NCBI GenBank assembly: GCA_024278345.1
Contig: JAJRTK010000359.1
Span: 1-26,958, forward strand
Source of the DNA: a bacterium
Lineage (GTDB): Bacteria; CSSED10-310; JAJRTK01
Length of the DNA: 26,958 nt
Direction of reading: 5' to 3'
Made by a program: the position numbers and the translations under genes. Of this stretch, positions 16,001 through 18,475 are shown piece after piece. Numbering within the stretch: the first letter of the stretch is position 1; every line of letters begins with the position of its first letter. The notes beneath the pieces were generated by a model that ran no database searches, was not told the origin of the DNA, and worked only from the letters and a program-made list of their open reading frames with translations.

Positions 16001-16477
16001 CGGAACATCAAACAGATCGTGACCAGGAAAAATGGAAAAATGGCTCGGGCCATCCTCGAGGATCTCAAGGGCTCGGTTCCCGTGACTTTCTTTCCCAAAA
16101 GCTACGAGAAATGCCGCGATCTCATCCGGGAGGATTCACCGGTGCTTCTGCTTGGTGAGGCTGAATCCATGGGATCATCGGCAAATATTGTCGTGGATGG
16201 CATCGTACCTTTGACGCAAGTCCGCGAAGAGCATGCAAGAAGGATTCGGATCAGGATTCCGGAGAACAGCCCGAAATCGCTTTTCTTCTCCGTCCGAAGG
16301 ATCTTGCTGGATCATCCGGGATCTTGTCCTGTCTTTGTCGAGCTTGAGGTCAGTGGTTTCGGTCAATTGGAGTCCGTCCTGTTCGCCCCTGCCAAACCTT
16401 CCGCTGCCAGGCCGGTCGATTCCTTGTTCCGGCAACTGGAAGCTGTACTTGGCGAGGACAGAGTCCTGACGGAATGA
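13028..16477 (+). CDS. dnaE: DNA polymerase III alpha subunit
   Basis: Replicative polymerase catalytic subunit, 1149 aa, of normal DnaE length. ATG 13028 is chosen because GAGAGG lies five bases upstream and the protein then opens just before the PHP motif 'FVHLHNHTEYSLLDG'. The PHP domain continues with 'AITDHGNMFGAPEFY' and 'GCEIYL'. The polymerase core has 'GPGRGSAAGSLVAY' and the catalytic acids D403 and D405 in 'PDIDIDF', almost the same positions as in E. coli. Helix-hairpin-helix and OB-fold regions follow, the latter starting near 'RIGGILRNIKQIV'. The gene begins 54 nt after the cyclase stop and is followed 28 nt later by the HldE-like gene, so it may be cotranscribed with both. Confidence 0.97.
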   Translation: MSRSPFVHLHNHTEYSLLDGINRIEPMMRKAVELGMPAVAITDHGNMFGAPEFYKCAKKFGIKPIIGCEIYLEPEPEPGGRRPSYSHHLILLAKSQKGYENLIQLVSDGYLNGFYYKPRVSKEKLAEHSGDLVCTTACLAGEVAWNVLRDKVEEAKAAIGFYQDIFGRQNFFLELMDHDMEEQRQANRMILELAQSLDVPLVATNDCHYLEKSDAHSHEVWLCVQTGRQLSSEKRLAYPTDEFYFKSGKEMWRRFGDFPEALHNTLAVAEMIDFEMIFGQTILPDFQTPGGESPEEYLRTLALEGLERRLAAASIEREGRKVYEDRLEYELRVITDMRYPAYFLITWDFIRHAKCRGVPVGPGRGSAAGSLVAYALGITDIDPVPYKLVFERFLNPERVSMPDIDIDFCKRRRDQVIDYVAKKYSRSNVAQIITFGTSKARNVLRDVGRVLGMPYSQVDKITKLIPDVLNIKLKEAIAQEPRLQELIDKEPEVRRLMEISFGLEGIVRHASVHAAGVVISKNPVGSYVPLYRDPKKGDVVTQYDMRILEEIGLLKMDFLGLKTLTVIDDTLKTLRSRGENPPDLKKLPLDDRATYALLSRADTNGVFQVESSGMKELLRELKPSVFEEIIALVALYRPGPLGSGMVKDFIDRKHGRKSISYPLPTLRDILKDTYGIILYQEQVMQIASKLAGFSLGQADLLRRAMGKKKKSVMEEQRQLFVEGSVLHGTSQRKATEIFDLMAKFAEYGFNKSHSAAYALLTYQTAYLKAHHPAAFFAAWLTNDVDNTDKVVIAIDDASQHGIELLPPDVNESDESFTVVGAQQIRFGLAGIKSVGHTAVEQILSARSKAGRFLSLYDLAQRVDLRTVNRRVFERLIKCGACSSFSENRAGLMEILDRVVDAAQRAQADRAAGQISLFGDQDEIVGADFPVPDMREYPKSSILEWEKEYLGFYLSGHPLDRFRPLLERLGDTDSVTIRNRAHRESIRIGGILRNIKQIVTRKNGKMARAILEDLKGSVPVTFFPKSYEKCRDLIREDSPVLLLGEAESMGSSANIVVDGIVPLTQVREEHARRIRIRIPENSPKSLFFSVRRILLDHPGSCPVFVELEVSGFGQLESVLFAPAKPSAARPVDSLFRQLEAVLGEDRVLTE

Positions 16478-16505
16478 GGCACCCTCATCACTGGAGGAGT
16501 GTGTG

Positions 16506-17519
16506 ATGTTGGAAGATCTATTGACCACCCTCGAGATCCAGAAACCAGAGCGCCGAATCCTGGTCCTTGGGGATCTGATGGCCGATAAATATATATGGGG
16601 CGACCATCTTCGGATGTGCAAGGAGGCTCCGGTTCCCGTGATGCGCAGGGTGAACGAAGTGTACAAGCTTGGTGCGGCAGCCAATATTGCCAGTTCGATT
16701 CGCCAACTTGGTGCCGAAGTTTACCTTTGCGGTATCGTCGGTTTTGACGATGCCGCTCTTTCTTTGCGGAGAGCCATCGCCGCCGCGGGCATCGCCACCG
16801 GTGGCCTTTTCCCTTCGGAAACGCGTCCCACGACGCTCAAAGTGCGCATGATGTCGCAAGAGTATCGGCAGTTGTTGTTTCGTCTTGACAGCGAGTCAAC
16901 GACGCCACTGGACGAAAAAGAGGTCGCCTCCCTTCGCGGCTATGTCGAGACCATGCTTCCCGAGATCGACTTGCTGGTCCTTAGTGATTATCGGAAGGGG
17001 ATGTTTGGAGTTCCAAGTTTCTCGCGCTGGATCGTTGATGAGGCTGGCAGATGCAACGTCAATACCGTGGTCCTGGGGCGCCCCAGCAGTCTGGTGAGTT
17101 TTGCGGGAGCCACGACCATTGTCTGTATGGCGTCCGATGCCCGAGAATTCATGTATCTGCAGGGAAGAGGTTTTGCCACTGAACTTGATTCCATGGGAAA
17201 GGAGATGCGGAAGCTCCTCCGGTGCGGTTCTTTGACGCTCGTCCACGAAGAGCGGGGTCTTTGGCAGTGGCGTGCTGATGGAGAACGGGAAACGGTGGCG
17301 CCGGCGCGTCGCCAGAGGATCGACTGTCTTGGGCTGGAAGAAGCCGTTACAAGCGCGACGGCTATCGCTGTCGCACTGGGAATGGATCCTGGCGATGTCC
17401 TCAACCTGGCAAGCCTGGCAGCGGGGGTCATCTGTTCCAAAGCCGGGTATTCGCCTATTTCCCTCTCCGAGCTTCAACGGTTCACGGAGATACGCCAGGT
17501 GGAACCTTTTCCAGTTTGA
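16506..17519 (+). CDS. HldE N-terminal-like PfkB-family protein with a degenerate active site
   Basis: The 337-aa protein aligns by eye along its full length with the heptose-7-phosphate kinase domain of HldE/RfaE: 'GDLMADKYIWGD', 'KEAPVPV', 'LGAAANIA', 'RPTTLKVR', 'LVLSDYRKG', and a C-terminal 'AAGVICSKAGYSPISLSEL'. However, key kinase elements are gone. Where the family has D-V-T-G-A-G-D-T-V, this protein has D273-C-L-G-L-E-E279-A-V, losing the anion-hole glycine and the catalytic Asp. The IDPKG and LTPN motifs are replaced by 'VLGRPSS' and 'VCMASDAREF'. It is probably a pseudokinase or has a changed reaction. The start ATG 16506 has GGAGGAG upstream; an in-frame GTG precedes it by one codon. 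An apparently intact PfkB gene follows within about 20 nt. Confidence 0.82.
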   Translation: MLEDLLTTLEIQKPERRILVLGDLMADKYIWGDHLRMCKEAPVPVMRRVNEVYKLGAAANIASSIRQLGAEVYLCGIVGFDDAALSLRRAIAAAGIATGGLFPSETRPTTLKVRMMSQEYRQLLFRLDSESTTPLDEKEVASLRGYVETMLPEIDLLVLSDYRKGMFGVPSFSRWIVDEAGRCNVNTVVLGRPSSLVSFAGATTIVCMASDAREFMYLQGRGFATELDSMGKEMRKLLRCGSLTLVHEERGLWQWRADGERETVAPARRQRIDCLGLEEAVTSATAIAVALGMDPGDVLNLASLAAGVICSKAGYSPISLSELQRFTEIRQVEPFPV

Positions 17520-17539: not shown

Positions 17540-18475
17540 ATGACACCAAAGTTCGATGTGTTGTGCGTCGGTTTTTCATGTACCGATTTGGTGATCCCGT
17601 ACTCCGGTCTCCCCGTGTACGACAGGAAGAGACAGGTACACGGACTGCGCTTCCATGGTGGCGGCCCTGCGGCTACGGCAGCCATTGCCCTTCGTCGCTT
17701 GGGTCTCAAGACTGCCCTTGTCACGGCCTTGGGCGATGACGAATGGGGACGTGTTTCCAAAAGCAGCCTGGAACGGGAGAGGGTCGAGCTCTTCGGGCCT
17801 GTTTCTCAGAAGGGCGTCCGCTCCCCGTTGTCCGTGATTCTTGCCGATCCTGATGGAGGTGCAAGGACGATTCTCTGGAATCGAGGCACCCTGGCGCCAC
17901 CCTCGCCCAAAGATGTGCGGCGATGCTTTGACGGCGTGAAGCTGGTTCTCATCGACGAACTTTACCCGAAGGCTGCCCTCGAAGCTGTGCTGGTGGCGGA
18001 AGCCCTGGGGATTCCCGTCGTTTTTGACGCCGGAACCGCCGCTCCGGAGTTGGAGGAGTTAGTAAAAAGAGTTACTGTTTTAGCCGCTTCTCAGCATTTT
18101 CCCCAAGGAATGACGGGGATCTCCCAACCTCGACAAGCCTTGGAGGCTCTGTTTCGGATGAATGGCCGCCCGGTCATCTCGACGCGGGGAAAGGATGGCT
18201 GCTGGCTCTTGGACGAACGGGGCCTTCGCACTTTTCCGGCTCCGGTCGTGGCCGCCGTGGATACCACTGGGGCTGGAGACGCATTTCATGCCGCTCTGGC
18301 GTTTGCTTTTTACATGGCCTGGCCATTGGAGAAGTGTCTGGAATTCGCGAACTTCTATGGGGCTCAGAACTGTTGTGCCTTGGGTGCAAGGGGCCGCTTG
18401 CTTGGGCTGGAAGAGGTGGAGGAATGGCTGCACGCCCACCTTCCCGTCCCGAGCCAACCTGTAAGGAGGAGCTGA
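17540..18475 (+). CDS. PfkB-family carbohydrate kinase
   Basis: Predicted ATP-dependent kinase of a sugar or sugar-like compound, cytosolic, 311 aa from ATG 17540. Seen: the N-terminal 'DVLCVGFSCTDLV', the sugar-binding 'FHGGGPAATAAIALRRLG', 'VILADPDGGARTILWNRGT', and the catalytic D241-T-T-G-A-G-D247 motif, intact in contrast to the preceding gene. The overall pattern resembles ribokinase and ketohexokinase-type members, but the substrate cannot be read from the sequence. A GTG at 17528, with AAAGG four bases upstream, is an alternative start; the TTG at 17516 overlaps the previous stop. It follows the HldE-like pseudokinase almost without a gap, and its end contains the ribosome-binding site of the ThiF-like gene. 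Confidence 0.88.
   Translation: MTPKFDVLCVGFSCTDLVIPYSGLPVYDRKRQVHGLRFHGGGPAATAAIALRRLGLKTALVTALGDDEWGRVSKSSLERERVELFGPVSQKGVRSPLSVILADPDGGARTILWNRGTLAPPSPKDVRRCFDGVKLVLIDELYPKAALEAVLVAEALGIPVVFDAGTAAPELEELVKRVTVLAASQHFPQGMTGISQPRQALEALFRMNGRPVISTRGKDGCWLLDERGLRTFPAPVVAAVDTTGAGDAFHAALAFAFYMAWPLEKCLEFANFYGAQNCCALGARGRLLGLEEVEEWLHAHLPVPSQPVRRS

Follow-up and report, generated by a model that had tools for sequence, protein, structure and literature searches.

A putative sugar pseudokinase family derived from an HldE-type heptose-phosphate kinase in uncultured bacteria

Related systems and the window gene

Pseudoenzymes are well studied among protein kinases and, to our knowledge, few have been described among small-molecule sugar kinases. 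In ribokinase-family enzymes, both glycines of the GXGD motif bind the donor phosphates, its Asp is catalytic and the NXXE motif serves Mg2+, while RXGRGD is the signature of the PPi-dependent members (PMC5931981). The role of GXGD as donor phosphate site and catalytic base is also described for PfkB kinases, in which a GGA motif supports the sugar, and the lids both close over the sugar and provide the interface of the dimer (PMC6240065). The plant proteins FLN1 and FLN2 are fructokinase-like, have the PfkB fold and belong to the RNA polymerase complex of plastids (PMC3409070, PMC4036507), and yeast Gal3p is a sugar kinase that has become a sensor and acts by ligand binding (PMC3409070).

The gene described here lies in a window of 26,958 nucleotides (the whole stretch of DNA analysed, contig JAJRTK010000359.1 of a CSSED10-310 bacterium), and its product can be set beside several of these systems. 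FLN1 and FLN2 are comparable as PfkB-family proteins reported to act structurally rather than shown to act as sugar kinases; however, they are fructokinase-like and not HldE-like, belong to plant plastids and have known partners, and the likeness is drawn with no claim of orthology. Gal3p illustrates the same route from sugar kinase to sensor by way of ligand binding, but it is a eukaryotic member of the galactokinase family and still binds ATP. The PPi-dependent ribokinase-family kinase TM0415 (PMC5931981) likewise combines a ribokinase fold of the usual kind with an altered donor half, but carries RXGRGD and an NXXE variant, neither of which is present in the HldE-derived family. Bacterial protein pseudokinases also form conserved families without catalytic motifs, but have the protein-kinase fold, and the text of the review describing them (PMC12599244) is silent on sugar kinases. 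As for the HldA/HldE kinase domain itself (TIGR02198; PDB 4e84), the family shares its fold, its sugar-site and lid motifs and the length of stand-alone HldA, and differs from it in the loss of the GXGD, NXXE, DPK and TRGxxG motifs, in a two-residue lid insertion and in a profile score below the cut-off (188 versus 345 bits for the window protein). Our searches of the open literature turned up neither an account of an HldE-derived pseudokinase nor a paper in which RfaE and pseudokinase appear together; others returned only protein pseudokinases and the plant FLNs.

The reading frame (Table 1) contains no internal stop and runs from an ATG at 16506 to a stop codon at 17517-17519. A GGAGG at 16493 lies upstream of this ATG, a pattern that alone is expected 1.6 times per window by chance, and the gene starts 28 bases downstream of the dnaE stop at 16477. 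An earlier note on this DNA had described an intact frame with a strong ribosome-binding site in a tight gene row, and these observations agree with it. The neighbours in the window, read by eye from translations, are dnaE, PfkB and ThiF genes. The adjoining PfkB kinase gene (17540-18472) has an intact VDTTGAGDAF and its best PDB match is the sulfofructose kinase YihV (E 1e-29); by eye it seems to be without NXXE (ASQHFPQ), and the ThiF-family gene comes after it.

Table 1. Positions in the window of the gene and of the features discussed in the text.
Feature	Position	Strand	Remark
Putative HldE-derived sugar pseudokinase gene, 337 aa	16506..17519	+	GTG start at 16503 possible
Shine-Dalgarno-like GGAGGAG	16493..16499	+	directly 5' of ATG 16506
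Conserved sugar-site and lid half, residues 1-167	16506..17006	+	47% mean family identity
Two-residue insertion E119-Y120, tip of second lid hairpin	16860..16865	+	in 9/9 members
Eroded nucleotide-binding half, residues 168-337	17007..17516	+	22% mean family identity
Lost DPK position	17073..17081	+	reads L-G-R; residues 190-192
Lost NXXE (Mg2+) position	17127..17138	+	reads M-A-S-D; residues 208-211
Lost TRGxxG position	17241..17258	+	reads V-H-E-E-R-G; final G retained; T246 -> V
Lost D-V-T-G-A-G-D position (donor phosphate site and catalytic base)	17322..17342	+	reads D-C-L-G-L-E-E; residues 273-279

Fold, donor site and sugar site

The TIGR02198 match spans nearly the full length of the window protein, and the scores of its eight relatives (179-266 bits) also lie below the curated cut-off, as does that of the canonical HldE copy in the window's genome (323 bits). 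Among PDB sequences, HldA of Burkholderia cenocepacia matches best (4e84, E 1e-28). An AlphaFold2 model of the window protein (pLDDT 93.4, pTM 0.92) was placed closest to HldA by both Foldseek and VIA-align (Z 39.4, rmsd 2.0 over 309 residues), versus a Z of about 32 for the next best other family, and PF00294 matches in all nine family members. The window protein is thus predicted to be a member of the PfkB/ribokinase-like superfamily with fold and lid present, and the claim that the whole HldE kinase fold is recognisable stands. In the model the C-terminal half keeps a predicted fold, and the loss concerns the chemistry of the donor site.

Alignment confirmed the earlier reading that TGAGD has become L-G-L-E-E and that DPKG and TPN are gone: where canonical proteins have D-V-[TS]-G-A-G-D, the window protein reads DCLGLEE, TPNxxE is replaced by VCMxxD and DPK by L-G-R. 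These changes are not chance variation, since conservation at the sites concerned is 92-100% across 79 aligned sequences used for comparison, most of them canonical HldE. Across the family, NXXE, DPK, T-R-G and the second Gly of GXGD are gone in most or all members. The GLEE of the window corresponds to GVED, GVQD, GAQD, GVGD, GMKD, GLSD, GLGD and GLRE in the relatives, so that GXGD is formally kept in two of them (GVGD and GLGD), its second Gly is absent in seven of nine members and its final Asp is retained in seven of nine; every member has D or E as the base residue. Eight members carry Leu, Val or Met as the second residue of GXGD. N..E occurs in none of the nine, and the Coatesbacteria retain an acid at the E position. 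RXGRGD is absent from all nine, and both of its Arg positions hold other residues throughout the family. An ADP-type motif, with Ile or Leu second and GXGD otherwise intact, is fitted by only one relative (L044, GLGD); the window protein has the Leu, but its second Gly is gone.

The sugar side is different. The HldE-type sugar-site motifs (GDxMxD, SPEAPV, GGAAN, TxKxR, RxD, SDYxKG) are mostly kept across the family, as are most canonical invariant residues of the sugar/lid half; in residues 1-167 of the window protein they read GDLMADKYIWG, EAPVPV, LGAAANIA, TTLKVR, RLD and SDYRKG. The window copy carries the sugar-site changes G57A (in the GGA motif), S38C and P39K and, because one Gly of GGA is lost, it may bind ligand less well than its relatives. 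The most divergent relative, from Tectomicrobia (L045:7998-8972), has the sugar-side changes D27E, S38A, E40D, R126Q and G165E; searches of its genome found none of the ADP-heptose kinase, isomerase and adenylyltransferase. The lid insertion common to the family is missing in 97% of the sequences compared and lies in the predicted model between the strands of the second lid hairpin (E110-117/E122-129). Further residues are family-specific and rare in the comparison set (D82, A83, A84, R88, F102, P103, E139 and T187, and Y80 in 8/9).

A conserved clade across phyla

A contig scan with the window sequence alone gave no matches, and an alignment-based scan returned eight relatives with the same losses in uncultured CSSED10-310, Coatesbacteria and Tectomicrobia, bringing the family to nine. 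Three belong to the phylum of the window (L038/G001, L043/G004 and L044/G007, two of these records being labelled CSSED10-310), three are referred to here as Coatesbacteria (L039-L041, two so labelled and one unlabelled MAG close to both), and the remaining two are L042/G038 and L045 (labelled Tectomicrobia). A tree of 79 rows, built after masking of the motif columns, places all nine members in one clade (SH-aLRT 100). Long-branch attraction could inflate this grouping, but the clade is independently supported by the lid insertion and the rare invariant residues that its members have in common. A family profile scored the members at 423-504 bits and everything else in 386 genomes at 273 or less, a gap partly built in by the presence of the nine members in the profile, and it revealed no further lineage with the family among the genomes sampled. 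The earlier note had proposed a check of whether homologues with an L-G-x-E-E replacement form their own clade, always beside an intact PfkB gene; the clade was found, while the exact string is peculiar to the window and, in the flanking DNA available, a PfkB gene adjoins none of the eight relatives. Close homologues with an intact GAGD, which the note had set against its own idea, were not found among the nearest relatives.

Loss of several catalytic motifs might be expected of a decaying pseudogene. However, the open frames are intact in all nine members, and the derived features are common to members from different phyla. Identities among the three Coatesbacteria are 74-82% for the family protein, 66-69% for the canonical HldE of these genomes and 77-83% for RuvB, and the family protein has a pN of 0.10-0.17 at a saturated pS of about 0.7-0.8. 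Since, with synonymous divergence saturated, its identity exceeds that of HldE and is close to that of RuvB, the family cannot be decaying neutrally; it is under strong purifying selection, as the earlier doubt about a pseudogene had anticipated. We therefore reject decay at the family level and consider it highly improbable as an explanation. The constraint is borne mostly by the acceptor/lid half. In the Coatesbacteria the N-terminal half of the family protein is 82-90% identical and the C-terminal half 64-73%, whereas canonical HldE lacks such a bias, and canonical HldE pairs matched on the N-terminal half are 38% +/- 5 identical in the C-terminal half, as against 22% in the family. This is an unusually clean split, with a strongly constrained acceptor half and a drifting donor half.

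Genomic context and possible functions

The earlier note had suggested that the protein might regulate or scaffold the PfkB kinase encoded by the next gene. Within the flanking DNA available, no PfkB gene was found beside any of the eight relatives, and a search for close counterparts of the window PfkB gave no match at E<=1e-15 in six other carriers and only PfkB relatives of 27-36% identity in two. Since such a neighbour is absent beside every relative examined, this suggestion is unsupported, and we rejected the adjacent PfkB as a partner; the partner protein is probably another. No gene neighbourhood common to the lineages was seen in the flanking DNA, read by eye from translations: the family gene lies near a sugar-phosphate transferase gene in G001, near PBP1A/RsmE/PrmA/DnaK genes in CSSED10-310, near a leucyl aminopeptidase gene in G038, and near peptidase or other genes close to ruvB/queH in the Coatesbacteria.

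Seven of the nine carriers have a canonical HldE (five above the TIGR02198 cut-off, two below), and in those seven the family copy is therefore not the sole HldE. No canonical HldE was found in G007 (69% complete) or in Tectomicrobia G044 (about 88% complete); searches for GmhA found none in G038 or G044, and those for RfaE domain II none in G044. A general ADP-heptose role was rejected on the grounds of G044, which carries the family protein while none of these three was detected there; either such a role cannot be general, or the G044 MAG is incomplete. In the window's genome, canonical HldE and GmhA lie on contig C90, and a second HldE-like kinase fused to RfaE domain II (L138, G000:C5:11500-16000; a frame of 550 aa with an intact IGAGD) adjoins a GmhA-like gene.

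On balance it seems probable that the window protein belongs to a rare HldE/HldA-derived family of sugar-phosphate-binding pseudokinases that form lid-to-lid dimers and act as a sensor, regulator or structural subunit of another protein. The ancestor would have been an HldE/HldA-type heptose-7-phosphate kinase. Its descendants would have lost phosphate transfer from ATP but most likely retain the binding of a sugar phosphate, heptose-7-phosphate or one like it, in the space between lid and core. Ligand-dependent closure of the lids in the presumed lid-to-lid dimer would then regulate the other protein, or the dimer would serve as its structural subunit, in a manner that may be likened to Gal3p or plant FLN1/2. 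The earlier pseudokinase idea, a function predicted from sequence, is supported by the finding that the GXGD, NXXE, DPK and T-R-G losses are common to a conserved clade.

Some observations run against a sensor or structural subunit, and other readings draw on them. The Asp of GXGD in seven of nine members, together with the Coatesbacteria acid at the E position of NXXE, makes some chemistry possible. Along with the fold, intact in the model, that Asp speaks for a working kinase with another donor (PPi or ADP) or another metal arrangement, in which the nucleotide half changed with the donor. The Leu, Val or Met at the second GXGD position recalls the Ile or Leu of ADP-dependent superfamily members, and a PPi-dependent member has large residues that occlude the ATP pocket (PMC5931981). 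However, a new donor site should be conserved and the donor half varies; the second Gly is mostly lost and N..E is never present, and we rejected PPi as the donor given the absence of its signature from all members, so that a kinase with an altered donor is unlikely. The acid at the base position in all members, the conserved sugar site and the new family-specific invariants could also suit a donor-independent reaction at the sugar site, such as that of an isomerase or hydrolase, and some bacterial protein pseudokinases proved to have new activities (PMC12599244). The donor half, however, shows no obvious new conserved catalytic cluster, and we found no PfkB-fold precedent in the literature; a new enzyme of this kind is decidedly improbable.

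The conserved lid half with its family-specific insertion, the lid-mediated dimerisation of PfkB kinases (PMC6240065) and the co-occurrence with canonical HldE in most carriers would fit a prozyme-like partner, forming a lid-to-lid heterodimer with the HldE of the same cell and tuning its activity. Such an interface would favour conservation of the lid half in HldE as well, but canonical HldE of the Coatesbacteria shows no better conservation in its lid half than elsewhere, and G044 has the family protein with no canonical HldE found. We thus regard this arrangement as improbable. The sensor or structural subunit that we prefer also has to accommodate the altered sugar-site motifs of the window copy (G57A, S38C), the ADP-heptose genes undetected in G044 and the lack of a conserved neighbourhood that names a partner.

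The nine members constitute a real new protein family whose function, judging from the sequences, is probably sensory or structural. The broader proposition, that prokaryotes have sugar pseudokinases derived from a heptose-phosphate kinase, either as a sugar-phosphate sensor controlling a partner or with a new donor-independent reaction, may equally well hold or fail. The family would offer a sharp and testable case of a metabolic enzyme turned binding protein, and its definition implies that annotation pipelines should not name such proteins HldE.

In a separate archaeal HldE-like clade (SH-aLRT 100), every copy reads G[VL]RD where canonical proteins have GAGD, with NXXE and T-R-S/G remaining and DPK reading QPK. 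Its members (L076, L082-L084, L090-L092, L094, L101, L103, L109, L112 and L115) are mostly labelled Bathyarchaeota or Nitrososphaeria/Thaumarchaeota and are candidate altered-donor kinases. This other replacement of GXGD suggests that such changes arose more than once.
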